Source: Kitasatospora sp. NBC_00315
GTDB taxonomy: Bacteria > Actinomycetota > Actinomycetes > Streptomycetales > Streptomycetaceae
Direction of reading: 5' to 3'
Length of the DNA: 64,000 nucleotides
NCBI RefSeq assembly: GCF_041435095.1
Contig: NZ_CP108025.1
Span: forward strand, 1,054,001 to 1,118,000
A model generated the notes under the pieces. The model was not told the origin of the DNA. It did not search any database and saw only the letters and a program-made list of their open reading frames with translations. Both the position numbers and the translations under genes were made by a program. Below are positions 12,330-40,310 of this stretch, one piece after another (position 1 is the stretch's first letter; every line of letters starts with the position of its first letter).

Positions 12330-12530
12330 GTCGGTCTCCTGTTTTCCGGGGTGTCGGGTCGTGCCGTGACGCGGTCGTACGTCGTGCGGTCACGGGCTGT
12401 ACGGTCCACGTCGGGCGGTGGTCGGGCGGGTACTGCGGTCGTCGGGTCGTGCGGTCGTCGGTACTGCGGAACTGCCGTCAGCGGCGAGGCGGTCGGTCGT
12501 GCGGCGTCGGCCGGGCGGGCCCGGTCGGCG

Positions 12531-12971
12531 TCACACCACTTCCTTGGGAGCGAGCGAGTCCTCCAGGAACACGCCGACGCGTTCGGCGGAGCGCCGCGCC
12601 TCCAGGTGCAGGCGTCCGACGTTCACGTCCGGGTGCGCCAGCACGGTGAGCACGCAGGCCGAACCGGCCGCGTAGGTGGCGACGTAGCCGTGCTCGCCAC
12701 GGACCAGCGACTCGCGGAAGTCGCCCTGCCCGGTCGTGTCGGCGAGGCGCTGGGCCAGCCCGAGCGCGGCAGCCGTGAGCGCCGCCAGACCGGCCGGTTC
12801 GGTGCCGTGGGTGTCGTGGGCGATCAGCAGTCCGTCCACGCTGGCCACCAGGCCTCCCGCCAGGTGCGGCACGCGGTGCCGCAGGGCGCGGAGTTCGGCC
12901 AGCAGCTCGGTCTCCAGGGCGATCAGCTGTCTCCTTCCGGCGCGCTGCTTGAGGGCCCGCCTCATGGACAC
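12531..12971 (-). CDS. Roadblock/LC7 domain protein with N-terminal helix
   Basis: A 146-residue protein from a GTG at 12971; an alternative ATG at 12965 would remove two residues. A basic helical extension (RRALKQRAGRRQLIALETELLAELRALRHRV) precedes a roadblock-type alpha/beta domain: LAGGLVASVDGLLIAHDTHG, TAAALGLAQRLADTTGQGDFRESLVRGEHGYVATYAAG and VLTVLAHPDVNVGRLHLEARRSAERV. It lies between the DUF4388-like gene and the third roadblock gene on the same strand. Its role is probably as a partner in a roadblock complex; no GTPase is visible. Confidence 0.8.
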   Translation of the reverse strand: MSMRRALKQRAGRRQLIALETELLAELRALRHRVPHLAGGLVASVDGLLIAHDTHGTEPAGLAALTAAALGLAQRLADTTGQGDFRESLVRGEHGYVATYAAGSACVLTVLAHPDVNVGRLHLEARRSAERVGVFLEDSLAPKEVV

Positions 12972-12999
12972 GGGCGTGGGACGGCGGGCGGAGCGGGGG

Positions 13000-13959
13000 T
13001 CACAGTCGGGCCTCCAGGGCGATTCGGACCCGGTTCAGCAGGGCGATGTCCGGGTCGGGGACGGACAGCGGGTGGGCCGCTGCGTGCGAGGGTCGGCGCA
13101 GGGGGCGGGGCTCGCCCCGCCGGCGGGCGGCGGCGCCGCCGGGGAGGGCGGCCAGCGCCGCGCCCGGGCTGCGGCGCTCCAGACCGGCGAGCGTGAACTC
13201 GACGGTGTCGGCGTCCACGTCCGCCGCCGGGGCGGTCCGCCCGCCGACCGGCCGGTCCACCGTGGCCGGGGCCGCGCCGCCCGGCGGGGTGGCGACCAGA
13301 CCCGCCGCGGCGAGCCGGCGGACGTCGGCGGTGGTCGCGAAGGCCGGTCGGCCGAGCAGCCGGGCGAGGTCCAGCGGAGTGCGCAGGCCGTCCACGTGCG
13401 CCAGCAGTTCACGCTGCCTGGCAGTGGTGGCCCGGCCACCGGTCCGCCCGCCCCGGGCCCCCACCACGGGTGCGGTGTCGAGCTGCGGGCAGGGCCAGAT
13501 CCGCTCCAGCAGGCTCCGGCGGCGCAGCGTCTCGCGGCGCAGCCGGTGGACGCTGACCGGGCGGACCGGGCCCAGCCAGTGCCGGGCTCCGGATTCGAAC
13601 CAGCTCGTCGTCGAACGGGCCGGCAGGACGAAGTAGGCCGCGTCGTAGAGCGCCGCCAGGTGGCAGAGCTCCAACTCGCCGCGGGTCAGCCGGCCCTGGT
13701 CGACCAGCGCGCGGCCGACCCGGCAGTCCGGCCCGAACGTGCGAACGGTCTCCTGCCAGACCTCGGCCGGGATCCGGCCGCAGGCCGCCAACGCACCGGC
13801 CATGCCCGGGGTGTGGGCGCTCTCGACGTTGACCACCCAGCCGTCCGCGAAGTGGACCGTACCGCTCTCGCAGTGCAGCGCGCCGGTGGCGCCCCGTTCG
13901 GCCAACTGCTCGATCGTCTCCCCCGACAGCCGGCGGAAGCGCACGAGTGGGCTCGTCAT
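13000..13959 (-). CDS. DUF4388/PATAN-like protein of the roadblock cluster
   Basis: A 319-residue protein from an ATG at 13959. The N-terminal 110 residues (GETIEQLAERGATGALHCESGTVHFADGWVVNVESAHTPG, then GRALVDQGRLTRGELELCHL) resemble the DUF4388-type module that binds small ligands or partner proteins and is often found beside roadblock proteins. The C-terminal part (TARQRELLAHVDGLRTPLDLARLLGRPAFATTADVRRLAAAGLV) looks like a winged helix, followed by an Ala/Arg-rich tail. It may link roadblock signalling to DNA or to another protein. The assignment rests on layout and context rather than on a certain motif. Confidence 0.65.
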   Translation of the reverse strand: MTSPLVRFRRLSGETIEQLAERGATGALHCESGTVHFADGWVVNVESAHTPGMAGALAACGRIPAEVWQETVRTFGPDCRVGRALVDQGRLTRGELELCHLAALYDAAYFVLPARSTTSWFESGARHWLGPVRPVSVHRLRRETLRRRSLLERIWPCPQLDTAPVVGARGGRTGGRATTARQRELLAHVDGLRTPLDLARLLGRPAFATTADVRRLAAAGLVATPPGGAAPATVDRPVGGRTAPAADVDADTVEFTLAGLERRSPGAALAALPGGAAARRRGEPRPLRRPSHAAAHPLSVPDPDIALLNRVRIALEARL

Positions 13960-14074
13960 CCCGGCCCCCGGCGGTTGCCGGCGGAGCGGCTCGCCCCGTC
14001 GGTGGCGTCGACCGGTGCCGGTGGCCGAAACGCGCCGCGTCCGGACGGCCCGGTGTGGATCGGTGCGGTGCCGG

Positions 14075-14458
14075 TCATCCCAGGACCAGCTCCTCGGCGA
14101 GGGCCTGCAACCGGTAGCGCGCGCCGGCCAGGTTGCCCTCGGTCCGGTCCAACCAGAGGTGCAGGGCGAGCCTGCTGTCGAAGACCGTGCCGACGAAGCA
14201 GAACAGGTGGTAGCTGCGGCCGCCGGTGACGATGATGTCCTGGAGCGGAAGCCCGGAGTCCTCCTGGTCGGAAAGTGTCGGACTGTCAGCCGCCGCCCTG
14301 AGAAGATCAGTTGCCTCGGCCGCCACCGCCTCGTGATCACCTGTCGGACTGTCCCCGGCGCTGCCGAGCGCGAGGCCGCTGCTCCAGTCGATGAGGCTCG
14401 CGCCACGAGCACCACCGATCGCCATCGCCCGCGACAGGCATTCGTCGATACCCGGCAC
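14075..14458 (-). CDS. Roadblock-type protein, first gene of the cluster
   Basis: A 127-residue protein. The GTG at 14458 is chosen because an AAGGAG ribosome site sits five bases before it; a longer frame upstream lacks support. The sequence follows the roadblock pattern: VPGIDECLSRAMAIGGARGASLIDWSSGLALGSAG, EAVAAEATDLLRAA, QDIIVTGGRSYHLFCFVG and LALHLWLDRTEGNLAGARYRLQAL. The ending is very like the downstream 124-residue roadblock protein, consistent with duplication. An AT-rich stretch about 110-150 bases upstream probably contains the operon promoter. Confidence 0.8.
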   Translation of the reverse strand: MPGIDECLSRAMAIGGARGASLIDWSSGLALGSAGDSPTGDHEAVAAEATDLLRAAADSPTLSDQEDSGLPLQDIIVTGGRSYHLFCFVGTVFDSRLALHLWLDRTEGNLAGARYRLQALAEELVLG

Positions 14459-24750: not shown

Positions 24751-24823
24751 TGGAGCGCCGGGCCCGATTCGAACGGACTCTTCCTACTGAAAGTAGGACG
24801 TGCTCCACCAGCACCACCGACGC
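24751..24823 (-). tRNA. Divergent tRNA-Glu(UUC)-like gene, copy 1, with encoded CCA
   Basis: Read on the minus strand, a complete cloverleaf forms: acceptor GCGTCGG/CCGGCGC, D stem GTGC/GCAC with loop TGGTGGA, anticodon stem TCCTA/TAGGA with loop CTTTCAG (anticodon UUC), three-base variable region, T stem GTCCG/CGGGC with loop TTCGAAT, then T73 and CCA. All stems pair, allowing G-U. Unusual traits are no A14, a short D loop, a three-base variable region and U73. A -10-like TAGTAT lies 31 bases upstream. U11-A24 and the short variable loop agree with tRNA-Glu identity, but translation use is unproven. Confidence 0.7.
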
Positions 24824-24854
24824 GTGGTCGAAGATCGTTCCTTCGACGAACCGA

Positions 24855-24860
24855 ATACTA
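24855..24860 (-). promoter_or_regulatory. -10 element of tRNA-like copy 1
   Basis: TAGTAT on the minus strand, 31 bases before the mature 5' end. The intervening leader (TCGGTTCGTCGAAGGA...) is conserved at the second copy, where TAATGT lies at nearly the same distance. No clear -35 element is seen. Confidence 0.45.
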
Positions 24861-25045: not shown

Positions 25046-26692
25046 TCAGTCGGCCCGGTGCACCACCTCGCCGGCCACCACGCCCAGCTCCACCCGCGCG
25101 TCCAGGATCGCCTTCGGTTCGGCGGCGAACAGGTCGTCCGAGAGCAGCACCAGGTCGGCGAGCTTGCCGGGGGCCAGCGAGCCGAGCTCGGTCTCCAGGA
25201 AGTTGGCGTACGCGCTGCCCAGCGTGTAGCCGCGCACGGCTGTGGCGAGGTCCAGCGTCTCCTGCGGCATCCAGGCGGGCCCGCCGGCCAGGCCCTGCCG
25301 GGTGACGGCGGTGTAGAGGCCGACCAGCGGGTCCATCTCGGCGACGTTCCAGTCGCTGGAGAGCGCGAGTGTGGCACCGGCCTCGTGCAGGCTGCGCATC
25401 GGCCAGGCCTTGCTCCACCGCTGCTCACCGACCGCCTCGGCCCAGTCCCGGCCGGGACCGGCGATGTCCGGCGAGCAGTGCCGGGGCTGCATGCAGGCCA
25501 CCACGCCGAGCTCCGCGAAGCGCGGGACGTCCGCCCGGTCGAGGCACTCCACGTGCACCACCTGGTGCCGGGCGTCGCGCGGTCCGTTGACGGCGCGGGC
25601 GTGCTCGACGGCGTCCAGGACGGTCCGGATGCCCCGGTCGCCGGTGGCGTGCACGAAGGCCTGGAACCCGGCCGCGTCCAGGGTGGCCAGTACCTCGGCG
25701 AACTCCTGCGGCGGGTAGAAGGTCTCGCCCCGGTGGCTGTGGCAGCCGGCGTACGGCTCCAGCAGGGCGGCGGTACGCGGCTCCACGACGTCGTCGATGT
25801 AGAGCTTCAACGGGCCGACCCGCAGCCGGTCGGAGGTGTACCGGCGGCCCGCCTCGGCGAACTCGGCGAGATCCGCCGGGGTCGTTCCGCGCGGGTGGAA
25901 CAGCGCCGCGACCAGCCGCGAGCGGAGCCTGCCCTCGGCGGCCGCGCGCTCGAACAGGGCCAGGTCGTCCAGCGAGTTCTGCGGTTCGACGACGGTGGTG
26001 ATGCCGAACCGGGCCGCCATGTCGAGGCTGCTGACCAGCCGCCCGTACTGGCGGTCCACCGCGGCCCACGGCACGCCCGCGGCGCGCAGCGCCCGGTGGC
26101 CGTCGCGGGAGAGGCCCTTGACGGCGAAGTCGGTGAGGAAGCCGGTGGGTTCGCCCGTCGCGGGGTCCTTGCGGACGGTCCCGTACGGCAGCCCGGTGGT
26201 GTCCCTGGTGATGCCGAGCCGGTGCAGGGCCGCGGTGTTCAGCCAGGCGGTGTGGACGTCGTAGCTGAGCACGAACGCGGGCCGCCCACCGGTGTACGGG
26301 TCGAGGTCCGCGGCGGTGGGCATCCGGCCGCCGGGGATCGCGGAGTAGTCGAACGCCTCGCCCTCGATCCACTCCTCGTCCGGGTGGCTGCGCAGCCGGG
26401 CGGCGATCCGGGCACCGATCTCGGCGAGGCCGGTGGCGCCGGCGAGTTGGACGCAGTCGGCGTCGGACCCGAGCCGGACGTGGTTGTGACTGTCCACGAA
26501 GCCGGGCAGCACCAGGCGGCCCCGCGCGTCCACCACCTCGGTGTCGGGACCGGTGAGTTCGCGCCAGCCCGCGCCGTCGCCGACCCAGGTGATCCGGCCG
26601 TCGCGGACGGCGATCGCCTCGGCGCGGGGCCGGGAGTCGTCCACGGTGTGGACGTGGGCGTTGTGCAGGACGAGGTCGGCGGGGCGGTTCAC
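25046..26692 (-). CDS. YtcJ-like metal-dependent amidohydrolase
   Basis: A 548-residue protein whose GTG start at 26692 overlaps the permease stop by GTGA. Hallmarks of the amidohydrolase superfamily are GRLVLPGFVDSHNHV (first metal HxH-type motif), YIDDVVEPRTAAL, FQAFVHATGDRGI, HVECLDRADVP and LALSSDWNVAEMDPL, with the closing LAPGKLADLVLLSDD strand. It resembles YtcJ/exoenzyme-regulatory-protein AepA relatives that hydrolyse N-acyl or formamide groups. Coupling to an amino-acid-type permease suggests it acts on an imported amide or cyclic amino compound. Substrate is not predictable. Confidence 0.88.
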   Translation of the reverse strand: MNRPADLVLHNAHVHTVDDSRPRAEAIAVRDGRITWVGDGAGWRELTGPDTEVVDARGRLVLPGFVDSHNHVRLGSDADCVQLAGATGLAEIGARIAARLRSHPDEEWIEGEAFDYSAIPGGRMPTAADLDPYTGGRPAFVLSYDVHTAWLNTAALHRLGITRDTTGLPYGTVRKDPATGEPTGFLTDFAVKGLSRDGHRALRAAGVPWAAVDRQYGRLVSSLDMAARFGITTVVEPQNSLDDLALFERAAAEGRLRSRLVAALFHPRGTTPADLAEFAEAGRRYTSDRLRVGPLKLYIDDVVEPRTAALLEPYAGCHSHRGETFYPPQEFAEVLATLDAAGFQAFVHATGDRGIRTVLDAVEHARAVNGPRDARHQVVHVECLDRADVPRFAELGVVACMQPRHCSPDIAGPGRDWAEAVGEQRWSKAWPMRSLHEAGATLALSSDWNVAEMDPLVGLYTAVTRQGLAGGPAWMPQETLDLATAVRGYTLGSAYANFLETELGSLAPGKLADLVLLSDDLFAAEPKAILDARVELGVVAGEVVHRAD

Positions 26693-28140
26693 ATCTTCTC
26701 CGTGAGGGCGGTGCGGGCCGCGTCGGCGGCGGAGGCCGACGGGGCGGCGGGAACGACGGCGGGGTGCTCCCCGGCGAGGTCGGCGGGCAGGCTGAGCATC
26801 CAGTGGGTGGCACCGCGCGGGCGCAGGTAGCCGAACCAGTAGGCGACGCCGACGAGCAGCACGGCGCCGGTGATCAGCAGGTCACGGGCGCTCTGCTGGG
26901 TGAGCGAGTAGCCGAGGACGCCGATGGTGACCAGCGGGACGACGGGCCACAGCGGCATCCGCCACGCGGGGGTGGCGCGGTGCCGGGCCCGGCGGGCGGT
27001 CAGGGCGGCGCAGCCGAGCAGCAGGTAGATGACGGCGACGACGACACCGGTGAAGCCGAGCAGCGCCTCGATCGGCACGGCCAGCGCGAGCACGATGCCG
27101 GGAACCCCGATGGCCAGGGTGGCGACCCAGGGCGAACCCCAGCGCGGGTGCAGACTGCCGAGCGCCCGGTTGACCGGGTCGGGCCAGGTGCGGTCGCGGG
27201 CGGAGGCGTAGAGCACCCGGCCGTTCTGCAGCACCATCACGATGACGGCGTTGAGGATCGCGGCGGCGATGCAGAGGCTGACGAAGGTGCCCACGGTGCT
27301 GCCCGCCCAGGAGTCGACCACCGCGACCAGGTCGCCGGTGGCGAGTGCGTCCGGCGAGGCGACGCCCAGACAGATGGCGGTGACCGGGACGCTGATCAGG
27401 ACGACCCCGGCCAGCAGCGACCACAGGACGGTCCGGGCGACGCTGCGGCGCGGGTCGCGCAGGTCCTCGGAGAGGTACACGGCGGTGCCGAACCCGTTGT
27501 AGGTGAAGAGGGCGACCGCGAGTCCGGAGACGAGCAGCCCGGCGGTGAACGGACTGGTGCCGCCCTGGCCGTCCGGCACCACGGCGTGCAGCAGGGTGGA
27601 GACGGGCTGGCGTACGTGCAGGAAGCCGAGCACGCTGACCACGGCGGCGGCGAGCACCTCGATGCCGAGGAAGACGCCGGTGATCAGGGCGTTGGACTTG
27701 ATGTCCAGCACACCGACCGCGACGGCCAGGGCCATCACCGCCGCTCCGGCCACCGCGGGGTCGAGGGAGACCACCGAGGAGAGGTAGCCGGCCGTACCGA
27801 GGGCGATGATCGGCGGGATCACCAGCAGCGACACCACGGAGATCACGAAGACCAGCCAGCCGGCGAGGCGCCCGAGCAACTGCCCGACGATCGAGTACTC
27901 ACCGCCGGCGCTGGGGACGAGCGTTCCCAGCTCGGCGTAGCAGAAGCCGACGCCGAGCGAGAGCAGGGCCGCGATCAGCAGGGTCAGCACGGCGCCGCTC
28001 CCCTGGCTCTGCAGCAGCGGCGGAACGACGATGAACAGGGAGGAGGCGGGTGTGACGCAGGAGAGCGTCAGCAGGACGCCGCCGAACACGCCCAGCGAGC
28101 GGGGCAGCGCGGCGAGGTCCGGCTTCGGGGTTTCGGTCAT
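26689..28140 (-). CDS. APC-family amino acid/amine permease
   Basis: A 483-residue transporter with twelve hydrophobic helices. The first helix motif GVFGGVLLTLSCVTPASSLFIVVPPL and FCYAELGTLVPSAGGEYSIVGQLLG identify the APC superfamily. It lies 119 bases after an AsnC-type regulator gene and is translationally coupled to the amidohydrolase, forming a likely uptake-and-hydrolysis unit. Substrate specificity cannot be read; amino acids or amines are typical. The intergenic region carries a GTCAACC/GGTTAAC dyad. Confidence 0.9.
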   Translation of the reverse strand: MTETPKPDLAALPRSLGVFGGVLLTLSCVTPASSLFIVVPPLLQSQGSGAVLTLLIAALLSLGVGFCYAELGTLVPSAGGEYSIVGQLLGRLAGWLVFVISVVSLLVIPPIIALGTAGYLSSVVSLDPAVAGAAVMALAVAVGVLDIKSNALITGVFLGIEVLAAAVVSVLGFLHVRQPVSTLLHAVVPDGQGGTSPFTAGLLVSGLAVALFTYNGFGTAVYLSEDLRDPRRSVARTVLWSLLAGVVLISVPVTAICLGVASPDALATGDLVAVVDSWAGSTVGTFVSLCIAAAILNAVIVMVLQNGRVLYASARDRTWPDPVNRALGSLHPRWGSPWVATLAIGVPGIVLALAVPIEALLGFTGVVVAVIYLLLGCAALTARRARHRATPAWRMPLWPVVPLVTIGVLGYSLTQQSARDLLITGAVLLVGVAYWFGYLRPRGATHWMLSLPADLAGEHPAVVPAAPSASAADAARTALTEKM

Positions 28141-28203
28141 CGGGCACCCGGACTCGGTAGAAGGTGGGGGTGCCGGTCATTCAACGCGCGGCGAAAAGAT
28201 CGC

Positions 28204-28223
28204 GTCAACCCTTCTTGGTTAAC
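28204..28223 (-). promoter_or_regulatory. Imperfect dyad in the AsnC-permease gap
   Basis: GTCAACC-CTTCTT-GGTTAAC (one mismatch between arms) lies 64-83 bases upstream of the permease start. It could bind the adjacent AsnC-type regulator. On the minus strand it includes a TTGACG -35-like hexamer. Confidence 0.45.
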
Positions 28224-28258
28224 GTTTCACGCTCAGATGACTTCTTTTTCTCCTATTC

Positions 28259-29239
28259 CTAAGTTGAGAGCACTCCAGACAAAGGATTCACCGGTCGGAG
28301 CGGTAGATCGTAGGTGTAGGACTCCTTGACGATCTCCAGGTGGTACCAGGACTCCACCCGGACGACGCCCTCCGCGCCGCGCAGCGCGTCCAGCGTCGCG
28401 AGCAGCGCCGGGCGGTCGCTCGCGTCCACCCCGCACACCACGTCGAAGCGGCCGTGGCCGGCCGCCACGTAGTTGACCCCGGGCAGTCGCGCGGCGGCTC
28501 CCGCGGCGGCCGGCGCGCTGCCGCGTACGGTCAGGCCGACGCCCACCGCCTCCCGCACCCCGACCGCCCGTGAGTCGACCAGGCCGGTCACGTGGACGGC
28601 TCCCGACTCCAGCAGCCTCAGCACCCGTGCCCGGGTGGCAGGCTGGGACAGCGCGACGCGCTCCGAGAGCGCGGCGAACGAGGCGCGGCCGTCGGCCTGC
28701 AGCAGGCCGAGCAGCGCGCGGTCGACGTCGTCCACCAGTGGGCGGCGTTCGGCGCCGCCCGCTCCCGGCCCGCCGCCCGCTCCCGGCCCGCTCTCGGCCT
28801 CCCGCACCGGCGAGTAGGCGTCCTTGACCAGCCGGGTGCACCGGAACACCTCGATCCCCCGCACCCCGGGCGCCGACCGCAGCGCCGCGAACTCACGCTC
28901 CAGCGCCGACTCGTCGGCGACCCGGAGTTCGACCACCACGGCGCGGGCGCCGGCGGTGCAGGACACGAAGCTGGTCGCCGGGCGGGCGGCCGCCGCGTCG
29001 GCGGCCGCCCGCCCGGGGCCCTCGACGTCCAGCGAGACGTGCGCCACCGCGCCGATCCCGACGACCCACGGCTGGACGATCCCGACCACCCGCACCGTCC
29101 CGGTCTCCAGCAGCCGGTGCACCCGGGCCCGGGCCGCCTCCCGCGAGACGCCCAGCAGCTCGGCGAGCCGCTGGTGGCTGATCCGGCCGTCCCGCTGCAG
29201 TTCGCGGACCAGCGCGGCGTCGAACGCGTCCAGCATCAT
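28259..29239 (-). CDS. Tandem-domain Lrp/AsnC-family regulator
   Basis: A 326-residue protein from an ATG at 29239 (GGGAG five bases upstream; a second ATG follows immediately). It contains two complete Lrp/AsnC units: an HTH at about 5-50 (DAALVRELQRDGRISHQRLAELLGVSREAARARVHRLLETG) with a RAM domain to about 145, a Gly/Pro linker, then HTH (DRALLGLLQADGRASFAALSERVALSQPATRARVLRLLESG) and RAM domain ending WYHLEIVKESYTYD. Such fused dimers are common in actinobacteria. It is probably the specific regulator of the permease/amidohydrolase genes downstream and likely senses their substrate. Confidence 0.9.
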   Translation of the reverse strand: MMLDAFDAALVRELQRDGRISHQRLAELLGVSREAARARVHRLLETGTVRVVGIVQPWVVGIGAVAHVSLDVEGPGRAAADAAAARPATSFVSCTAGARAVVVELRVADESALEREFAALRSAPGVRGIEVFRCTRLVKDAYSPVREAESGPGAGGGPGAGGAERRPLVDDVDRALLGLLQADGRASFAALSERVALSQPATRARVLRLLESGAVHVTGLVDSRAVGVREAVGVGLTVRGSAPAAAGAAARLPGVNYVAAGHGRFDVVCGVDASDRPALLATLDALRGAEGVVRVESWYHLEIVKESYTYDLPLRPVNPLSGVLST

Positions 29240-29306
29240 GGGCACTCCCCTCGTCCCGGCGATCGTACCCATCGCCCCTCCCCGCCCGGCGCCACCTTTC
29301 CTGACC

Positions 29307-29314
29307 GAACGTTC
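29307..29314 (+). promoter_or_regulatory. GAACGTTC palindrome before the TetR gene
   Basis: An eight-base perfect palindrome inside ACCGAACGTTCCAGT, 23 bases upstream of the TetR start. The position fits an autoregulatory operator overlapping the promoter. Confidence 0.45.
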
Positions 29315-29336
29315 CAGTGGAAGTCAGGGTCGACTC

Positions 29337-29918
29337 GTGGCCAGGACCAAGGAATTCGACCCGGACGTCGCCCTTCGCGCGGCCCTGGGGCTGTTCTGGG
29401 AGCGCGGCTACGAAGCGACGTCGACGAGCGACGTCGTCGCGCGCCTGGGCATCGGACGCGCCAGCGTCTACGCCACCTTCGGCAGCAAGCACGAGCTGTA
29501 TCTCCGCGCGCTCGACCGGTACGCGGAGCAGACCGATCCGCGCCTGCTGGAGGAGCTCTCGCAGCCGGGCGCCGTCCTGCCGGCGGTCCGGGCGCTGGTC
29601 CGCCGGTTCGCCGAGAAGGCCGGTTCGGAGCGGCGGACCCTCGGCTGTTTCGTCACCAACACCGCCGCCGAGCTGGCCGCCCACGACCGTGAGGCGGCCC
29701 GCCGGGTCGAGGCCGGCTGGGACCACCTGGAGACGCTGCTGCACTCGGCCCTGGTGCGGGCCGCGGCCCGGGGGGAGCTGGCCGCGGAGCGGGACCCCCG
29801 GGGGATCGCCCGACTCCTCGTCGTGCTGATGCAGGGGATGCGCGTGGTCGGCAAGGCCGCCACCGACCCGGGCCGGGTGCGGGACGCCGCCGAACAGGCA
29901 CTGACGCTGCTGGACTGA
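29337..29918 (+). CDS. TetR-family regulator (YxaF/AcrR-like)
   Basis: A 193-residue regulator from a GTG at 29337 (VARTKEFDPD). The helix-turn-helix is typical (ALRAALGLFWERGYEATSTSDVVARLGIGRASVYATFGSKHELYLRAL). The C-terminal domain has the GCFVTNTAAELAAHD signature of the subgroup that includes regulators of oxidoreductases and efflux pumps. Such genes commonly stand beside the short-chain dehydrogenase they control. Here only a small SDR-like remnant remains downstream, so the regulator may have lost its local target. Confidence 0.9.
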   Translation: MARTKEFDPDVALRAALGLFWERGYEATSTSDVVARLGIGRASVYATFGSKHELYLRALDRYAEQTDPRLLEELSQPGAVLPAVRALVRRFAEKAGSERRTLGCFVTNTAAELAAHDREAARRVEAGWDHLETLLHSALVRAAARGELAAERDPRGIARLLVVLMQGMRVVGKAATDPGRVRDAAEQALTLLD

Positions 29919-30031
29919 CCCGGCCGAGCCGAGCCGGCCCTCGTCCGGGTGCCCCTGCGCCCGGCGGCCCGCACCCCCGCCTCGCCTTGGACCTCGCCCT
30001 CGCCCGGTGACACTGTGCTCCGACTCGATAC

Positions 30032-30067
30032 CGGACCGATCGATCCACTGTCGACTCGATCGGTCCG
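30032..30067. repeat. Perfect 12-base inverted repeat in the TetR-GNAT gap
   Basis: CGGACCGATCGA (30032-30043) and TCGATCGGTCCG (30056-30067) flank a 12-base loop. It could terminate the TetR transcript or serve as an operator. Confidence 0.55.
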
Positions 30068-30113
30068 ACCGTTGGGCCCGATCGTCCGCCCCGTCACCCG
30101 CTCGCCCGCTCAG

Positions 30114-30167
30114 CGCGGCCGACCCAGGGGCACCGACCTGGTGGTCGACGGCGGGACCTCCACCTGA
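30114..30167 (+). pseudogene. C-terminal relic of a short-chain dehydrogenase
   Basis: The plus strand reads RGRPRGTDLVVDGGTST followed by a stop, which is the standard C-terminal signature of SDR enzymes (TGTDLVVDGG). No Rossmann start, SYK triad or other SDR motif is found upstream in the 29919-30113 stretch. It lies just after a TetR gene of a type usually paired with an SDR, so it looks like the last remnant of the deleted target gene. Confidence 0.5.
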
Positions 30168-30331
30168 CCGCTCCCCGGGCCGCCTGCCTCCGGCCCGAGC
30201 GAGCCGACGCGGACCGGCGGCGGGCAGGGCCGGGCAGGGCGGGACCAGCCGGGCGTAGCGGGTGGTCGGAACAGCGGTGCAGCCGGGGAACAGGCAGGTC
30301 ACAGGCCCGGGACGGGGTGGAGCCGCCGGGC

Positions 30332-30343
30332 TAGGGTGGGGAG
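30332..30343 (+). promoter_or_regulatory. -10 element close to the GNAT start
   Basis: TAGGGT (30332-30337) lies six bases before the ATG at 30344, so transcription should begin at or next to the start codon. GGGGAG overlaps the gap and could instead act as a weak ribosome site. Confidence 0.45.
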
Positions 30344-30952
30344 ATGAACACCGGATACCGACCTGTTCCCGCGCGGGTGGCCGAGCCCGCGGACATCGAC
30401 GCCGTCGTCGCCGCACTGACGACCGCCTTCTTCGAGGACCCGCTGTGGGGCCCGGCCTTCCCCGACCCGGACCGCCGCGCGGTACAGGCGGCGGCCATGT
30501 GGCGGCTGTACGTGACGTCGGCCCAGCGCTACCCCTGGACACTGGTGACACCGGGGGTGGAGGCCGTCGCCGTCTGGATCCCGCCGGGCGGCACCGAGCT
30601 GACCCCCACCGAGGAGAGCGGGTTCGCGGACTTCCTCGCCGACTGCGCGGGCCCCGAGGCGGCCGCGGGCATCATCGGCATCTGCGAGCTGCTGGAGGCG
30701 GCCCGCCCGAGCGAGCCGCACTTCTACCTCACCCTGCTGGGGACCCACGACGACCATCGCGGCAAGGGGCTCGGGATGGGCGTGCTCGCCGAGAGCCTGA
30801 CCCGCGTCGACGCCCTCGGCGCTCCGGCCTACCTGGAGTCGTCCAACCCCGCGAACGACGCACGGTACGAGAAGGCGGGCTTCGTGGCCCGCGACCGGAT
30901 CACCACGGCGACCGGCCATGTCGTGACGACCATGTGGCGCCCGGCCCGCTGA
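30344..30952 (+). CDS. GNAT-family N-acetyltransferase
   Basis: A 202-residue enzyme. The acetyl-CoA loop is visible as HDDHRGKGLGMGVLAESLTRVDALG (Q/R-x-x-G-x-G/A form), preceded by strand YLTLLGTH and followed by AYLESSNPANDARYEKAGFVARDRI, the typical C-terminal GNAT ending. The N-terminus (ADIDAVVAALTTAFFEDPLWGPAFPD) matches a common streptomycete subgroup whose substrates are unknown. It stands alone, convergent with the SDR gene, and may be expressed from a promoter almost at its start codon. Confidence 0.9.
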   Translation: MNTGYRPVPARVAEPADIDAVVAALTTAFFEDPLWGPAFPDPDRRAVQAAAMWRLYVTSAQRYPWTLVTPGVEAVAVWIPPGGTELTPTEESGFADFLADCAGPEAAAGIIGICELLEAARPSEPHFYLTLLGTHDDHRGKGLGMGVLAESLTRVDALGAPAYLESSNPANDARYEKAGFVARDRITTATGHVVTTMWRPAR

Positions 30953-31124
30953 CCACCGCTCCGCCGCCTCTCGGTCCGCCGCCCCGCTCCGGCTCCGGCG
31001 CGCGCCGGTACCGGCACCGACCCGGTGAGTTCCTCCGCGCCGGACCACCCCGGCGGCTCCCGGCGGCGGTTCGCGGCGCGCCCGGATCGGGGCGCGCCGC
31101 GAACCGGCGGCCGGGGAGCGGCCG

Positions 31125-31892
31125 CTACTGCGGGGTCACGTACGCGCCGGAGATGCCGCCGTCCACCAGGAAGGTGCTGGCGGTCATGAACGACGAGTCG
31201 TCGCTGGCCAGGAAGGCGACCGCGGCCGCGATCTCGTCCGGCTCGGCGAAGCGGCCGAGCGGGATGTGCACGAGCCGACGCGCGGCCCGCTCCGGGTCCT
31301 TGGCGAACAGCTCCTGGAGCAGCGGGGTGTTGACCGGCCCGGGGCAGAGCGCGTTGACCCGGATGCCCTCGCGGGCGAACTGGACGCCCAGCTCGCGGGA
31401 CATCGCCAGCACGCCGCCCTTGGAGGCGCTGTAGGAGATCTGCGAGGTGGCGGCGCCCATCACCGCGACGAAGGAGGCGGTGTTGATGATCGAGCCCTTG
31501 CCCCGCTCGCGCATGTGCGGGATCGCGTACTTGCAGCAGAGGTAGACGCTGGTCAGGTTGACGTCCTGGACCCTCTTCCAGGCCTCCAACCCGGTGGTGA
31601 GGATGGAGTCGTCCTCGGGCGGCGAGATACCGGCGTTGTTGAACGCGATGTCCAGGCGTCCGTACTCGGCCACCGTGGTCTCGTACATCGCGCGCACCGC
31701 GTCCTCGTCGGCGACGTCGGCCCGGATGAACAGGCCGCCGACCGAGGCCGCGGCCGCCTTGCCCGACTCCTCGTCGAGATCCACGCAGACCACCTTCGCC
31801 CCCTCGGCGGCGAAGCGGCGGGCGGTGGCGAGGCCGATTCCACTGCCCGCGCCGGTGATGACGGCCACCCGGCCGTCGAGTCGCTCGGTCAT
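31125..31892 (-). CDS. Short-chain dehydrogenase/reductase (FabG-like)
   Basis: A 255-residue enzyme from an ATG at 31892, four bases after the aldehyde dehydrogenase stop with a GGAGG site inside that gene. It has the complete classical SDR set: cofactor loop VITGAGSGIGLATARRF, acidic residue in VVCVDLDEE (NAD preference), FNNAGI, catalytic ISYSASKGG (Y-x-x-x-K) and terminal FLVDGGISGAY. As the last gene of the permease-ligase-hydrolase-dehydrogenase operon, it probably oxidises or reduces an intermediate of amine breakdown. Exact substrate unknown. Confidence 0.92.
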   Translation of the reverse strand: MTERLDGRVAVITGAGSGIGLATARRFAAEGAKVVCVDLDEESGKAAAASVGGLFIRADVADEDAVRAMYETTVAEYGRLDIAFNNAGISPPEDDSILTTGLEAWKRVQDVNLTSVYLCCKYAIPHMRERGKGSIINTASFVAVMGAATSQISYSASKGGVLAMSRELGVQFAREGIRVNALCPGPVNTPLLQELFAKDPERAARRLVHIPLGRFAEPDEIAAAVAFLASDDSSFMTASTFLVDGGISGAYVTPQ

Positions 31893-31896
31893 GGCG

Positions 31897-33273
31897 TTAC
31901 TCCTCCGTGGAGATGAAGACGTTCTTGGTTTCGGTGAAGGCGTGCAGCGCGTCGGGCCCCAGCTCCCGGCCGAGGCCGGACTGCTTGAACCCGCCGAACG
32001 GGGTCGAGTACCGCACCGAGGAGTGCGAGTTGACGGAGAGGTTGCCCGCCTCCACGCCCCGGGCGACCCGCAGGGCCCGTCCCACGTCCCGGGTCCAGAT
32101 GGAGCCGGAGAGGCCGTAGTCGGTGCTGTTGGCGATCCGCACGGCGTCCTGCTCGTCGCGGAACGGGACGACGGTGACCACCGGCCCGAAGATCTCCTCG
32201 GTGAACGCCCGCGCGTCGTGGTCGACGGGCGACAGGACGGTGGGCGGGAACCAGAAGCCGGGGCCGTCGGGCGCGCTGCCGGTGAAGGCGACCGGGCTGC
32301 CGTCGCCGAGGTAGGAGGCGACCCGTTCGCGGTGGGCCGCCGAGATCAGCGGGCCCATCTCGGTCTTCTCGTCGGTCGGGTCACCGACCCGCACGCCCCG
32401 GACGGCCGGCTCCAGCAATGCCATGAACTCGTCGAACACACCTGCCTGGACGAGGATCCGGGAGCGCGCGCAGCAGTCCTGTCCGGCGTTGTCGAACACG
32501 GCGTACGGTGCGGTGGCGGCGGCCTTCGCCAGATCGGCGTCGGCGAAGACGATGTTGGCGCTCTTGCCGCCGAGCTCCAGGGTGACGGGCTTGACCTGCT
32601 CGGCGCAGCCGGCCGCGATGCCCTTGCCGACCCGCGTGGAGCCGGTGAACACGACCTTGCGGACGTCGGGATGGGTGACGAAGCGCTGCCCCACGACCGG
32701 GCCCCGCCCCGGCAGCACCTGGAGCACTCCTTCGGGAATGCCCGCGTGCAGGGCGAGTTCGGCCAGGCGCAGGGCGGTGAGCGGGGTGAGTTCCGCGGGT
32801 TTGAGCACCACGGTGTTCCCCGCGGCGAGTGCCGGCGCCAGGCCCCAGGCCGCGATCGGCATCGGGAAGTTCCAGGGCACGATGACGCCGACCACCCCGA
32901 GCGGCTCCTGGAAGGTGACGTCCAGGCCGCCGGCCACCGGGATCTGCCGGCCGAAGAGGCGTTCGGGCGCGGCGGCGTAGTACTCGATCACGTCGCGCGC
33001 GTTGCCCGCCTCCCAGCGCGCGTTGCCCACCGTGTGACCGGCGTTGGCGACCTCCAGCGCGGCCAGTTGCTCGCGCTCGGAGTCGACGGCGGCGGCGAAG
33101 GCCCGCAGCAGGCGGGCCCGGTCGGCCGGGGCGACCGCGCGCCAGCTCTCGAAGGCGGTCCTGGCGCGGGCCACGGCGGCGTCGGTCTCGGCGAGACCGG
33201 CCATCGCCACCGTCCGGATCACCTCCTCGGTGGCGGGGTTGACCACCTCGAAGAGGTCCTGGTCCGAACTCAC
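31897..33273 (-). CDS. Aldehyde dehydrogenase (PuuC/GabD-like)
   Basis: A 458-residue enzyme from a GTG at 33273 with GAAGGAGA upstream. The ALDH landmarks are present: PWNFPMPIAAW, KPAELTPLTALRLAEL, FTGSTRVGKGI, catalytic Glu in LELGGKSANIVF and catalytic Cys in NAGQDCCARSR, plus EEIFGPVVTVVPF. The operon encodes a gamma-glutamyl ligase and a gamma-glutamyl hydrolase, so it probably oxidises a gamma-glutamyl-aminoaldehyde or a semialdehyde, as PuuC does in putrescine breakdown. Pathway placement is inferred from the neighbours. Confidence 0.92.
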   Translation of the reverse strand: MSSDQDLFEVVNPATEEVIRTVAMAGLAETDAAVARARTAFESWRAVAPADRARLLRAFAAAVDSEREQLAALEVANAGHTVGNARWEAGNARDVIEYYAAAPERLFGRQIPVAGGLDVTFQEPLGVVGVIVPWNFPMPIAAWGLAPALAAGNTVVLKPAELTPLTALRLAELALHAGIPEGVLQVLPGRGPVVGQRFVTHPDVRKVVFTGSTRVGKGIAAGCAEQVKPVTLELGGKSANIVFADADLAKAAATAPYAVFDNAGQDCCARSRILVQAGVFDEFMALLEPAVRGVRVGDPTDEKTEMGPLISAAHRERVASYLGDGSPVAFTGSAPDGPGFWFPPTVLSPVDHDARAFTEEIFGPVVTVVPFRDEQDAVRIANSTDYGLSGSIWTRDVGRALRVARGVEAGNLSVNSHSSVRYSTPFGGFKQSGLGRELGPDALHAFTETKNVFISTEE

Positions 33274-33345
33274 GGTGCTGTCTCCTTCAGGTGGTGGATG
33301 TCGACGTGCCACGAAGGTGGCGGGCGTGGCGGCTGCCACGGGGCT

Positions 33346-34053
33346 TCAGGTGCCGGGCGTGGCGGCTGCCACGAAGGCGTTGAACAGACGGGGGTCGGAG
33401 GGGTCGGCCTCCGGGTGCCACTGGACGCCCAGGACGAAGCGGCGGCCGGGTAGTTCGAGGGCCTCGATGGTCCCGTCGGCGCTCCAGGCCGTCGCCAGCA
33501 GTCCGTCGCCGAGCCGGTCGACGGCCTGGTGGTGGTAGCAGGCCACCTTGGCGGCGTGGCCGAGGACGGTGGCGAGCGTGGCGGCGGGCCTGACGGCCAC
33601 GGCCTGCGTGGCGAACGTGGCGGGCGCGATCCGGTGGCTCTCGTCCCCCGTCCGGTCCGGCAGGTGCTGGATCAGCGTGCCGCCCAGGGCGACGTTGAGC
33701 AGCTGCATGCCCCGGCAGATGCCGAGCACCGGGACGTCCAGCTCGAGCACCCCGCGCAACAGGTCGAACTCCCAGGCGTCGCGCACCCGGTGGGGCTCAC
33801 CGGCCTGGGGGTGCGGCGCCTCGCCGTACCGTCCGGGGTCGATGTCGGGACCGCCCGCGAGCAGCAGACCGTCGAGCCGGGCCAGCAGCCGCCCGGTGTC
33901 ACCGGTCTGCGGGGGCAGGAGGACGGGGACGCCGCCTGCGCGCGTGACGGCGTCGACGTAGCTCTGCGGGATGAGGGCGGCGGGCTGGCGCCAGACCCCC
34001 CAGGCGGCGTCCTCCAGATAGCCGGTGATCCCCACCAGCGGCGCGGCGGTCAC
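33346..34053 (-). CDS. Gamma-glutamyl-gamma-aminobutyrate hydrolase (PuuD-like, class I amidotransferase fold)
   Basis: A 235-residue enzyme whose GTG at 34053 overlaps the ligase stop by GTGA. The peptidase C26 pattern is clear: GITGYLEDAAWGVW, GLLLAGGPDIDPGRYG, nucleophile C113 in VLGICRGMQLLNVALGGTLIQHL, and the His/Glu pair in GVQWHPEADP. In the glutamylated putrescine route this enzyme frees GABA from gamma-glutamyl-GABA. The 3' end and following gap contain a short direct repeat (GGGCGTGGCGGCTGCCACG). Confidence 0.93.
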   Translation of the reverse strand: MTAAPLVGITGYLEDAAWGVWRQPAALIPQSYVDAVTRAGGVPVLLPPQTGDTGRLLARLDGLLLAGGPDIDPGRYGEAPHPQAGEPHRVRDAWEFDLLRGVLELDVPVLGICRGMQLLNVALGGTLIQHLPDRTGDESHRIAPATFATQAVAVRPAATLATVLGHAAKVACYHHQAVDRLGDGLLATAWSADGTIEALELPGRRFVLGVQWHPEADPSDPRLFNAFVAAATPGT

Positions 34054-35408
34054 AGTCGCTCGAATCCGCGCCGACGCTCCCAGTCGGTCACCGCCGCGTC
34101 GTAGGAGGCGAGTTCGACCCGGCCCGCGTGGGTGTAGTGCCGCACGACGTCCTTGCCGAAGGCGAGCGCGGCGGCCTCGCTCCGCTCGAACGCCCCGACG
34201 GCGTCGCGTAGCGTGGCGGGCACCCGGGGCGCGTCCGAGGCGTAGGCGTTTCCGGTGAACTCCGCCTCCAACGAGAGCTGTTGCTCGACCCCGTGCAGGC
34301 CGGCCGCGATCAGGGCAGCGACCGCGAGGTAGGGGTTGACGTCCCCGCCGGGCACCCGGTTCTCGAACCGCAGCGAGGCCCCGTGGCCGACCACCCGCAG
34401 CGCGCAGGTGCGGTTGTCCCTCCCCCACGCGATCGCGGTGGGGGCGAAGCTCCCCGGCACGTACCGCTTGTAGGAGTTGACGGTGGGGGCGAGCAACAGC
34501 GCGAAGTCGGCCAGGCAGGCGAGCTGTCCGGCCAGGAAGTGCTCCATCACCGGCGAGAAGCCGTGCGGGCCGTCGCCGGGCATCACCGGGGCGCCCCGGT
34601 CGTCGCGCAGGCTCAGGTGGATGTGGCAGGAGTTGCCCTCGCGCTCGTTGTACTTGGCCATGAAGGTGAGGCTGCACCCCTCCTGCGCGGCGATCTCCTT
34701 GGCGCCGGTCTTGTAGACCGCGTGGTCGTCGCAGGTGCGCAGCGCCTCGGCGTACTTGAAGGCGATCTCGTGCTGGCCGAGGTTGCACTCGCCCTTCGCC
34801 GACTCCACGGTGAGCCCGGCGCCGGCCATCTCGTTGCGCACGCGGCGCAGCAGCGGCTCGACCCGGGAGGTGCCGAGGATCGAGTAGTCGACGTTGTACT
34901 GGTTGACGGGCGTGAGCCGGTGGTAGTCGCGCTCCCAGGCCTGCTCGTAGCTGTCCTTGAAGACGATGAACTCCAGCTCCGTGCCCGCGTAGGCGTGCCA
35001 GCCGTAGCCGGCCAGGCGCTCCAGCTGGCGGCGCAGGATCTGCCGGGGCGAGACGCTGACCGCCCGGCCGTCGTGGTGCGCGACGTCGCACTGCACCATG
35101 GCGGTGGCGGGATGCCAGGGGACGGTGCGCAGGGTGGCGAGGTCGGGGGTGAGGACGAGGTCGCCGTAGCCGCTCTCCCAGGAGGAGATCTCGTAGCCGT
35201 CCACGGTGTTCATGTCGATGTCGACGGCGAGCAGGTAGCCGCAGCCCTCGGCGGAGTTGGGGACGACGTCGGAGAGGAAGTACTCGGCGGCGACCCGTTT
35301 GCCCTGCAGACGGCCCTGCATGTCCGTCATGGCGAGTACGACGGTGTCGATCGCGCCGGTGGCGACGCGGGTGCGCAGGTCCTCCAGGGTGAGGCGCGGA
35401 CTGCTCAT
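34050..35408 (-). CDS. Glutamine-synthetase-like gamma-glutamylpolyamine/amine ligase
   Basis: A 452-residue enzyme from an ATG at 35408, overlapping the permease stop by ATGA. It has the GS beta-grasp N-terminus (VVLAMTDMQGRLQGKRVAAEYFL) and the catalytic barrel (GTELEFIVFKDSYEQAW; KGECNLGQHEIAFKYAEAL; GNSCHIHLSLRD; PTVNSYKRYVPGSFAPTAIAWG; RFENRVPGGDVNPYLAVAA). The sequence and gene company fit PuuA/GlnA3/GlnA4-type ligases rather than housekeeping GlnA. It probably attaches glutamate to an imported amine to start its degradation. Confidence 0.9.
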   Translation of the reverse strand: MSSPRLTLEDLRTRVATGAIDTVVLAMTDMQGRLQGKRVAAEYFLSDVVPNSAEGCGYLLAVDIDMNTVDGYEISSWESGYGDLVLTPDLATLRTVPWHPATAMVQCDVAHHDGRAVSVSPRQILRRQLERLAGYGWHAYAGTELEFIVFKDSYEQAWERDYHRLTPVNQYNVDYSILGTSRVEPLLRRVRNEMAGAGLTVESAKGECNLGQHEIAFKYAEALRTCDDHAVYKTGAKEIAAQEGCSLTFMAKYNEREGNSCHIHLSLRDDRGAPVMPGDGPHGFSPVMEHFLAGQLACLADFALLLAPTVNSYKRYVPGSFAPTAIAWGRDNRTCALRVVGHGASLRFENRVPGGDVNPYLAVAALIAAGLHGVEQQLSLEAEFTGNAYASDAPRVPATLRDAVGAFERSEAAALAFGKDVVRHYTHAGRVELASYDAAVTDWERRRGFERL

Positions 35409-37045
35409 GGGATCTCCGGTTCGGCTTCGAGGGCGGGGAGTTCCTCGGCCGGGTGCTGGATCCCCGGTCCGGTGAACCAGTGCCTGGCGGAGACCAGCCA
35501 CCAGCTCCCGGCGAAGCCGAGGACGACCAGGACCGCGACCGGCGTGTAGTTGAAACTGACGGCGGTGACCGGGCTGACGGTGGGCAGCATGAACAGCACG
35601 GTGATCAGTGCCGTCCACCCGACGGCCACCACGCCGATCGGCCGGCTCCAGCGGCCCAGGTGCCAGGGCCCGCGTTCGAAGGCCTCGCCCTGCCTGAGTC
35701 TGAGGAACACCGGGATGACGTAGGCGAGGTAGAGACCGATCACCGAGACCGAGGTCACCGCGGCGTACGCGGTGGTGTTCCACAGGGCCGGCAGGCCGAG
35801 TACGAAGGCCCCGCCGGTGGCGAGTCGCACGGCGCTGGTGGGCGTCCGGGTGCGGGGGTCGATCCGGTGCCACAGACGCGAGCCGGGCAGTGCGCCGTCC
35901 CGGGAGAAGGCGTAGATCATCCGGGAGTTGGCGGTGACGGAGGCCATGCCGCAGAAGAACTGGGCGCCGATCACGATGAGCAGCAGCAGTTCGGCGCCGC
36001 GGTCACCGACGGCGTCGATGAAGATCTGGGCGGGCGGCACGCCGGTCGAGCCGCCGAGCGCGCCGTCGTAGTCCTGGATGGCGAAGGTGAGGCCGAGCAG
36101 CAGGATCCAGCCTGCCACCAGCGAGACCAGCACCGAGTTGACGATGCCGCGCGGGCCGGAGCGGGCGGCGTCCCTGGTCTCCTCGGTCATGTGGGCGGAG
36201 GCGTCGTAGCCGGTGAGGGTGTACTGGGCGAGCAGCAGGCCGATCATGGCCACGTAGAAGGAGCTGTGGAACCCGGTCCTGTTGACGAAGCCGGTGAGGA
36301 CGAAGGAGGCCGAGGCGTGGTGCGCGGGCACCAGGACGAGCACGCCGACGATGATCGTGACCCCGGCCAGGTGCCACCAGACGCTGACGTTGTTGAACAG
36401 CGCGACCAGTCGCACGCCCCGGGTGTTGAGCAGGCCGTGGACGAGCAGGATCACTCCGAACAGCGTGACGGTGTGGACGGGGGTGGCCGCGAAGCCGAAC
36501 CGCATCTCCAGCAACGCGTTGGTGAAGATGGCGGCGCCGTAGTCGACACCGGCGGTGACCGCGATCTGGCCCAGCGTGTTGAACCAACCGGTGAACCAGC
36601 TCCACGCCGGGCCACGGGAGGGGGCCAGTTTGGCCGCCCAGTAGTAGAGGCCGCCGGCGGTGGGGTAGCTGGAGCAGATCTCGGCCATCGACAGGGCCAC
36701 GCACAGGGTCATCAGCCCGACCACCGGCCAGCCCCAGGTGATGATCGCGGGCCCCCCGGTGTTCAGGCCGAAGCCGTAGAGGGTCAGGCAGCCGGAGAGA
36801 ATGGAGACGATCGAGAAGGACACCGCGAAGTTGGAGAAACCGGACATCGAGCGGGCCAGTTCCTGGGTGTAGCCGAGTTCCCGCAGCCGCTGCTCGTCCG
36901 AGGACGGGGCGGTCCCGCCGGGCATGTCGGCGGGATCCGCCACGGCGCCGCCCGCCGACATGCCGGGCGCGTCCGCCGGAAACACCCGGGTGGCAGCCTG
37001 CTCGGGAGGTGAGTGGTGGTCGACCGGTGAGTGTTCGGGAGACAT
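35405..37045 (-). CDS. APC-family amine/amino acid permease (PuuP-like role)
   Basis: A 546-residue membrane protein from an ATG at 37045 with AAGGGG five bases upstream. A disordered N-terminal tail of about 55 residues precedes twelve helices with APC motifs (RSMSGFSNFAVSFSIVSILSGCLTLYG; CSSYPTAGGLYYWAAKLAP; LTGYDASAHMTEETRDAA). The EETRDA loop is typical of the amino acid-choline/GABA permease branch. It is the first gene of a five-gene operon and probably imports the amine later glutamylated by the next enzyme. A strong palindrome lies 56 bases upstream. Confidence 0.92.
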   Translation of the reverse strand: MSPEHSPVDHHSPPEQAATRVFPADAPGMSAGGAVADPADMPGGTAPSSDEQRLRELGYTQELARSMSGFSNFAVSFSIVSILSGCLTLYGFGLNTGGPAIITWGWPVVGLMTLCVALSMAEICSSYPTAGGLYYWAAKLAPSRGPAWSWFTGWFNTLGQIAVTAGVDYGAAIFTNALLEMRFGFAATPVHTVTLFGVILLVHGLLNTRGVRLVALFNNVSVWWHLAGVTIIVGVLVLVPAHHASASFVLTGFVNRTGFHSSFYVAMIGLLLAQYTLTGYDASAHMTEETRDAARSGPRGIVNSVLVSLVAGWILLLGLTFAIQDYDGALGGSTGVPPAQIFIDAVGDRGAELLLLIVIGAQFFCGMASVTANSRMIYAFSRDGALPGSRLWHRIDPRTRTPTSAVRLATGGAFVLGLPALWNTTAYAAVTSVSVIGLYLAYVIPVFLRLRQGEAFERGPWHLGRWSRPIGVVAVGWTALITVLFMLPTVSPVTAVSFNYTPVAVLVVLGFAGSWWLVSARHWFTGPGIQHPAEELPALEAEPEIP

Positions 37046-38286: not shown

Positions 38287-39867
<1,581 letters not shown>

Positions 39868-39925: not shown

Positions 39926-40045
39926 GTGCCCCCGTCGCCGTCCCTCCGGGCCGGGTGACCGGGACGGCCCGGGGCGGCGCACGGGTAAAAGCCACGGGCC
40001 CGGCCGATCCGCCGTGGGGCGGACCGGACCGGGCCCGGAAAAGAT

Positions 40046-40118
40046 TGGAGCGCCGGGCCCGATTTGAACGGACTCTCCCTACTGAAAGTAGGGCGTGCTC
40101 CACCAGCACCTCCGACGC
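40046..40118 (-). tRNA. Divergent tRNA-Glu(UUC)-like gene, copy 2, with encoded CCA
   Basis: Same layout and length as the gene at 24751-24823: acceptor GCGTCGG/CCGGCGC, D arm GTGC-TGGTGGA-GCAC, anticodon loop CTTTCAG (UUC), T stem GTCCG/CGGGC, U73 and CCA. Differences are few. The anticodon stem is CCCTA/TAGGG where copy 1 has TCCTA/TAGGA, a compensatory change that keeps pairing. Position 8 is A instead of U, and the T loop is TTCAAAT. A -10-like TAATGT lies 32 bases upstream (40151-40156) after a leader similar to copy 1. The 3' trailer ATCTTTTCCGGGCC is also shared. Confidence 0.7.
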
Positions 40119-40310
40119 ATGTCCAAGAGATCGCTCTCTCGACGAACAGAACATTACCAGGTCGCGGGGGGGTGCTCCCGACACCGGCGGTCGACGGCGG
40201 CCCGCTCGGCTTCCGGGTGTGCTCCGCGCCCGGGCCGGGAGTCGCCGGGCGCGGAGGGCGGCGGCCCTCGGCGTCCGGGCGCCGTCCCGGCCGAACGGCG
40301 GCCGGTGGGG

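Follow-up and report, generated by a model that had tools for sequence, protein, structure and literature searches.

Two tRNA-like elements in the window

The window, meaning the whole 64,000-nucleotide stretch of Kitasatospora sp. NBC_00315 analyzed here, carries on its minus strand two copies of a tRNA-like element that lie 15,295 bases apart, each with a -10-like box and a short leader ahead of the body. Their parts are as follows:

40046-40118, minus strand: tRNA-like body of copy 2 (ARAGORN; cloverleaf fold z -3.07; orthologues)
40046-40048, minus strand: encoded CCA of copy 2
40121-40143, minus strand: 5' leader hairpin of copy 2, after the -10 box and ahead of the body (own fold weak, z -0.88; relatives' leaders)
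40151-40156, minus strand: -10-like box TAATGT of copy 2, then a 32-base leader (sequence; motif in relatives)
39985-40039, minus strand: long G+C-rich hairpin followed by CUUUU, 3' of copy 2 (fold z -6.03)
24751-24823, minus strand: tRNA-like body of copy 1 (ARAGORN; cloverleaf fold z -2.85)
24827-24847, minus strand: 5' leader hairpin of copy 1 (own fold z -0.76; relatives' leaders)
24855-24860, minus strand: -10-like box TAGTAT of copy 1, then a 31-base leader (sequence; motif in relatives)

Both copies are called tRNA-Glu with anticodon UUC by ARAGORN, and this call, stem-pair counts and folding agree on a cloverleaf with stems of 7, 4, 5 and 5 pairs and a 7-base anticodon loop, to which the MFE fold adds three pairs, two of them within the anticodon loop and the third in the D loop. 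Copy 2 combines the acceptor stem GCGUCGG/CCGGCGC, the D stem GUGC/GCAC, a 5-bp anticodon stem, the anticodon loop CUUUCAG, a 3-base variable loop (AGA) and the T arm GUCCG-UUCAAAU-CGGGC, followed by U73 and the encoded CCA. Copy 1 has U8, U27-A43 and the T loop UUCGAAU, whereas copy 2 has A8 and C27-G43; the paired anticodon-stem change and the unusual A at position 8, both pointed out in a preliminary description of this DNA, are thus read directly in the sequence. The identical trailer that it reported likewise holds through AATCTTTTCCGGGCC, in which the first A also ends the encoded CCA, but it forms the start of a strong hairpin only at copy 2 (z -6.03 versus 0.36 at copy 1).

The Rfam tRNA covariance model RF00005 matched neither window copy, even at E=10, and the sole tRNA-like Rfam match to them was a weak one to mascRNA. 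Over the whole genome, RF00005 found 70 tRNAs and none of the four copies of the element that the genome contains. ARAGORN, run on 40 stretches of this genome covering 69 of the 70 standard tRNAs, found those 69 together with the four elements, illustrating that conserved tRNA-like genes can escape the standard tRNA covariance model.

Copy number and distribution

The four copies lie on one contig, all on the minus strand, at 1078751, 1094046, 1127592 and 1321199, so the further-copy search proposed earlier yielded two more in the chromosome. The fourth has no encoded CCA; its stems stay intact because G6-C67 is replaced as a pair by A6-U67. The earlier picture of a dispersed pair 15 kb apart therefore stands for the spacing but gives way to four copies here and, in some related genomes, to tandem copies approximately 210 bases apart.

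A covariance model, R1, built from 33 distinct bodies of the 73-base size class (class 1), matched 32 of 70 genomes of the genus, or 30 of 70 after two weak matches (G002 and G024, 30.2 and 28.8 bits), whose sequences proved unlike the element on reading, were discarded; the positive genomes hold one to eight copies each, and 38 of the 70 gave no R1 match. Besides class 1, the genus has a second size class of 72 bases, found at 10 places in 9 genomes. Its members (L121-L130, anticodon UUC) combine U8, A14, the D-loop GG and UUC in the T loop with a shortened anticodon stem, and class 2 is possibly nearer the ancestral form.

A scan of 297 family genomes with R1 added members from two further genera, which ARAGORN calls tRNA-Gly(UCC). 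With a wider model, R2, and a threshold of E <= 1e-11, 178 of 394 family genomes were positive: 30 in the host's own genus, 1 in genus g19, 6 in g20 and 141 in g23, the last being probably Streptomyces, as judged from an identical body in Streptomyces plasmid records. Outside the genus, the R2 matches whose sequence was read comprised 26 aligned places and 20 fetched ones chosen to include doubtful cases; 16 of these 20 were family members, and all members read had the anticodon UCC. Ordinary tRNA-Gly is also matched by R2, more weakly (58.9 bits in the two read), and because of this the R2 result for the phylum (283 of 396) is not a count of the family.

The Streptomyces-type (UCC) body occurs at 137 places in 71 plasmid records, 69 from Streptomyces and 2 from Streptantibioticus; the megaplasmids of S. 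clavuligerus (H3-H18) carry four to eight such places per record. None was found in phage records, and none of the 20 matches listed overlapped an annotated gene, in a collection that carries no RNA genes. We also considered whether the window copies themselves came from a phage or plasmid and rejected this, since searches of plasmids, phages and viral contigs gave no match to them at the settings chosen.

Selection on the fold

Across the 33 distinct class 1 bodies, all 693 of 693 stem cells form standard pairs, in a set gathered by similarity to known copies from which strongly decayed copies could be missing. Two-sided changes occur at 5 of the 21 pairs, in 17 cells, and neither value was reached in any of 500 shuffles, while shifting the stem partners lowers pairing to 28-49%. 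The pair 27-43, at which the two window copies differ, is U-A in 19 bodies, C-G in 8 and U-G in 6. A wider set of 28 distinct bodies has 0 of 572 counted cells unpaired, with gapped cells excluded and an alignment made to the model and so biased towards it. Since every stem pair is kept and five pairs show two-sided changes, the elements are selected RNAs and not decaying repeats; the earlier argument for selection on the fold is thereby extended from two copies to an orthologue set, and the unpaired stem changes that were to be sought against it did not appear in any class 1 cell.

At positions 18 and 55, 26 of the 33 class 1 bodies have A-G and 7 have G-U. This covariation is perfect in class 1 but not in the UCC set (A-G in 13, A-U in 3, G-G in 1 and G-U in 1 of 18), and it is therefore not taken as proof of a tertiary pair.

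The putative transcription unit

The -10-like boxes previously noted 31-32 bases upstream are present at both window copies, and the motif [CG]TG[CGT]TANNNT recurs in 80 of 82 distinct 80-base upstream stretches against 0.64 in shuffles, a contrast that is generous because the motif was derived from the same data. A weaker TTCGG-like conservation lies 18 bases upstream of the box, with a poor match at window copy 2; a gap of 18 bases is the spacing of vegetative promoters. Copies closer than 80 bases to the start or 110 to the end of their locus were dropped, and the 2 of 84 units without a box were left out of the leader folds.

Between box and body, MFE folds of 82 leaders place a hairpin in most units, and 70 distinct 32-base leaders have a mean fold z of -1.67. 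In 20 leaders taken from the 43 distinct ones of 34 bases, to which the pair counts were limited, 80.6% of cells at the hairpin positions are paired, a share reached by 0 of 500 shuffles, and two-sided changes occur at 4 of 8 pairs, a number that 23 of 500 shuffles reach. The leaders of the window copies are not significantly folded on their own (z -0.88 for copy 2, z -0.76 for copy 1); the shared leader elements that had been described for them are borne out by the leader folds of orthologues.

On the 3' side, the strong hairpin of copy 2 ends in a short T run and has no counterpart at copy 1. It is a possible terminator, perhaps common to copy 2 and a convergent gene at 38344-39867 (plus strand), which encodes a principal-type sigma-70 factor with regions 1.2 to 4. 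Strong hairpins also follow the body in the relatives L055 and L095 (z -4.06 and -4.10), with a T-rich run in L055 only. Consensus scans of the window copies returned neither a promoter nor a terminator by their scan rules. From the sequence features as a whole, we infer that the element is transcribed and processed.

A glycine-like acceptor end and a glutamate-like anticodon loop

A mixed glycine/glutamate identity, absent from the sequence-only preliminary description, emerges when element bodies are compared with the standard tRNAs of the host. In a set of 57 distinct bodies, assembled before 16 further members were read, G1-C72, C2-G71, G3-C70 and U73 are present in 57 of 57, as is U11-A24. 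All 39 Kitasatospora bodies carry the glutamate anticodon UUC, and all 18 from elsewhere the glycine anticodon UCC. C32-G38 is likewise universal (57 of 57) versus 1 of 48 distinct standard host tRNAs, and the strong EF-Tu pairs G49-U65 and G51-C63 are each found in none of the 57. By comparison, the five host tRNA-Gly genes, with three anticodons among them, have G1-C72, C2-G71, G3-C70, U73, G49-U65 and G51-C63; the single standard tRNA-Glu(UUC) has G1-C72, C2-G71, C3-G70, A73, A49-U65 and G51-C63; and the three tRNA-Glu(CUC) have G1-U72, C2-G71, C3-G70, A73, G49-U65 and C51-G63.

Within class 1, the anticodon loop is invariant and the acceptor stem nearly so, while the elbow drifts. The bodies have A37 and a 3-base variable loop, and 33 of 33 have U14 and A21, a possible fifth D-stem pair that forms in the MFE fold of the window copies. 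The canonical U8-A14, R15-Y48 and U54-U55-C56 are thus not found as a set: besides U14, positions 15-48 are A-A or G-A in all 33 (A15-A48 in 30, by alignment-assigned positions, with G15 in the host-genome copies), and U-G-C stands at 54-56 in 26 of 33 class 1 and 40 of 57 distinct bodies, the host-genome copies keeping UUC. U-G-C at 54-56 is also a feature of staphylococcal non-proteinogenic tRNA-Gly. A18 and G55 each occur in 26 of the 33, subject to an uncertain D-loop numbering, and the host-genome copies keep GG. CCA is encoded in 26 of the 33 distinct class 1 bodies.

According to a review, glutamate identity is specified by U34, U35, C36, A37, U11-A24, a U13-G22:A46 triple and the absence of base 47; E. 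coli does not need N73, and another bacterium has an augmented D stem together with deletion of 47 (PMC9976931). For glycine, the same review gives G1-C72, C2-G71, C35, C36, U73 and further bases that vary by organism, C35 being a main determinant (PMC9976931). Set against these lists, the UUC element has most glutamate features but C13-G22 in place of U13-G22, and it has the bacterial glycine core except C35. These matches make the anticodon loop and core look glutamate-like and the acceptor end glycine-like.

Neighbors and candidate partner genes

No gene is constantly found next to the element across loci, and the neighbors differ. At 19 loci, the first gene of a roadblock-like set (c0, c1, c4, c6) lies in the element's neighborhood, usually just downstream. 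This set was rejected as an operon partner and as a cause, because other copies lie elsewhere and the set in the window has no element upstream. Where the sequence between element and genes was read, at L055 and L095, the element is followed by the strong hairpin. The window set, at 11955-14458 (minus strand), resembles c0, c1, c4 and c6 by eye, and its first protein has no Pfam match. Elsewhere in the window, 25046-36961 encodes an amidohydrolase, a glutamine-synthetase-like enzyme and a peptidase C26, and the neighbors of these genes resemble ones for gamma-glutamyl polyamine breakdown.

A dedicated synthetase was likewise rejected after a search that covered the GluRS and GlyRS families: the host genome has one GluRS match, and its GlyRS segments belong to one frame. 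By eye, some Kitasatospora genomes have a second GluRS-like gene, and these include genomes that carry the element and genomes that do not. The GlyRS frame is often longer in element genomes (500-524 codons, once 576) than the common 469, and the longer form is absent from the host genome and several other element genomes; it may reflect relatedness or start-site choice only. A FemAB-type gene is present in all 70 of 70 genus genomes, with or without the element, so its presence does not discriminate.

Possible roles

Our leading, still tentative, reading is that the element is a non-standard predicted tRNA that the single GluRS would charge with glutamate and whose main use would be as an amino-acid donor off the ribosome. 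Charging by GluRS would follow from U34, U35, C36, A37, U11-A24, the short variable loop and U14-A21, which match glutamate identity; the altered elbow, C32-G38 and lack of strong EF-Tu pairs would then exclude the element from bulk decoding. An acyl-transfer enzyme would read the acceptor end, which is constant, in the way that Fem enzymes draw on the non-proteinogenic Gly-tRNA of staphylococci. A reader other than a synthetase is suggested because the acceptor end is fixed across both anticodon types, though N73 is reportedly unneeded by GluRS. Glutamate is thus the favored cargo for the Kitasatospora element, with glycine a possible one, and the Streptomyces members, having a glycine anticodon, would carry glycine.

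Several observations sit uneasily with a glutamate donor. The elbow of the host-genome copies, with its GG D loop and UUC T loop, is less altered than in most relatives, and because the host tRNA-Glu(CUC) has C51-G63 as well, that pair does not establish weak EF-Tu binding for a glutamate tRNA. The U13-G22:A46 triple is missing (C13-G22), the constant glycine-type acceptor end is also compatible with charging by GlyRS, and neither a recipient enzyme nor a constant neighbor gene was found. Moreover, a distribution so scattered, and in part on plasmids, is more in keeping with an accessory role than with a core one in the cell wall. A wider proposal, which we consider doubtful, is a family-wide off-ribosome tRNA system in Streptomycetaceae that switched from glycine to glutamate in Kitasatospora, in which anticodon, variable loop and D stem would have shifted to glutamate identity and the acceptor end, recognized by a putative transfer enzyme, would have stayed fixed.

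It seems rather unlikely that the element is a supplementary tRNA-Glu(UUC), charged with glutamate and reading GAA/GAG, perhaps as a spare when an anticodon nuclease cuts the standard tRNA. Most listed glutamate determinants are present, and the host genome has four element copies versus one standard tRNA-Glu(UUC) gene; yet such a decoder would hardly be expected to escape RF00005, to have no match in 38 of 70 genus genomes, or to keep a GCG..CGC-U73 end in 57 of 57 bodies, although E. coli reportedly needs no particular N73 (PMC9976931).

Programmed mistranslation, in which GlyRS would charge the glycine-type body and glycine would enter at GAA/GAG in the manner of tRNA-ProX, is in our view unlikely. 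It would make sense of the mixed Gly/Glu identity, and the tRNA-ProX of Streptomyces and Kitasatospora likewise have A15-A48 (PMC11415595), which 30 of 33 class 1 bodies share; the host-genome copies, however, have G15. C35, a main glycine determinant (PMC9976931), is U in the UUC element, no dedicated GlyRS was seen in the host genome, C32-G38 and an altered elbow are odd for a decoder, and the UCC members have no identity mismatch.

An uncharged structured RNA, for instance a decoy or sponge for some protein that binds or cuts tRNAs, is quite improbable. A drifting elbow between an invariant anticodon loop and a nearly invariant acceptor stem would suit it, as would an accessory distribution that includes plasmids and a CCA encoded in only 26 of 33 class 1 bodies, but the invariant G1-C72, C2-G71, G3-C70 and U73 and the glutamate determinants of the anticodon loop would then be needless. 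Decaying tRNA-derived repeats, which the dispersal of the copies and the missing CCA of the fourth host-genome copy might recall, are extremely improbable and refuted for the set examined, given no broken stem cell among 693, the box in 80 of 82 distinct leaders and copies at matching positions across different genomes.

Comparison with known systems

We conclude from sequence comparison that the elements are a real, selected, multicopy family of noncanonical predicted tRNAs, and a search of the open-license literature found no report of it. It would be a large addition to the noncanonical tRNAs of the main antibiotic-producing bacteria and poses testable questions as to the amino acid carried in vivo, entry into the ribosome and other users; dedicated aminoacyl donors or programmed mistranslation would, if true, each be of interest.

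The element resembles the host tRNA-Glu(UUC) in its UUC anticodon and G1-C72, and the host tRNA-Gly(UCC) in its GCG..CGC-U73 end. It differs from both in C32-G38, U14, the short variable loop, G49-C65 and C51-G63, and in not being found by the Rfam tRNA model.

Among extra tRNAs, the tRNA-ProX group (tRNA-ProA, ProN and ProT) has a dual identity and inserts proline at Ala, Asn or Thr codons; it has a dedicated ProRSx and mistranslates in E. coli (PMC11415595, PMC10365949). It shares with the element the combination of one amino acid's body with another's anticodon and hosts in Streptomyces and Kitasatospora (PMC11415595, PMC10365949), and its A15-A48 recurs in most class 1 bodies, though not in the host-genome copies (PMC11415595). 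The element has a glycine-type body with U33 and U34, whereas tRNA-ProX is proline-type with A33 and A34. Furthermore, no co-encoded synthetase was found with the element, and its Streptomyces relatives have a matching body and anticodon. Because it lacks the proline body, A33, A34 and a synthetase partner, the element is not a member of tRNA-ProX.

The staphylococcal non-proteinogenic tRNA-Gly of the pentaglycine bridge are also additional tRNAs of the glycine type, in which elbow bases are replaced and, as in the element, the strong EF-Tu pairs are missing (PMC4052509). In contrast to them, the Kitasatospora element has a glutamate anticodon, its host-genome copies keep the D-loop GG, and it forms stand-alone units with leader hairpins and has an accessory distribution. 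The element may work like tRNA-ProX, like the staphylococcal tRNAs, or like neither.
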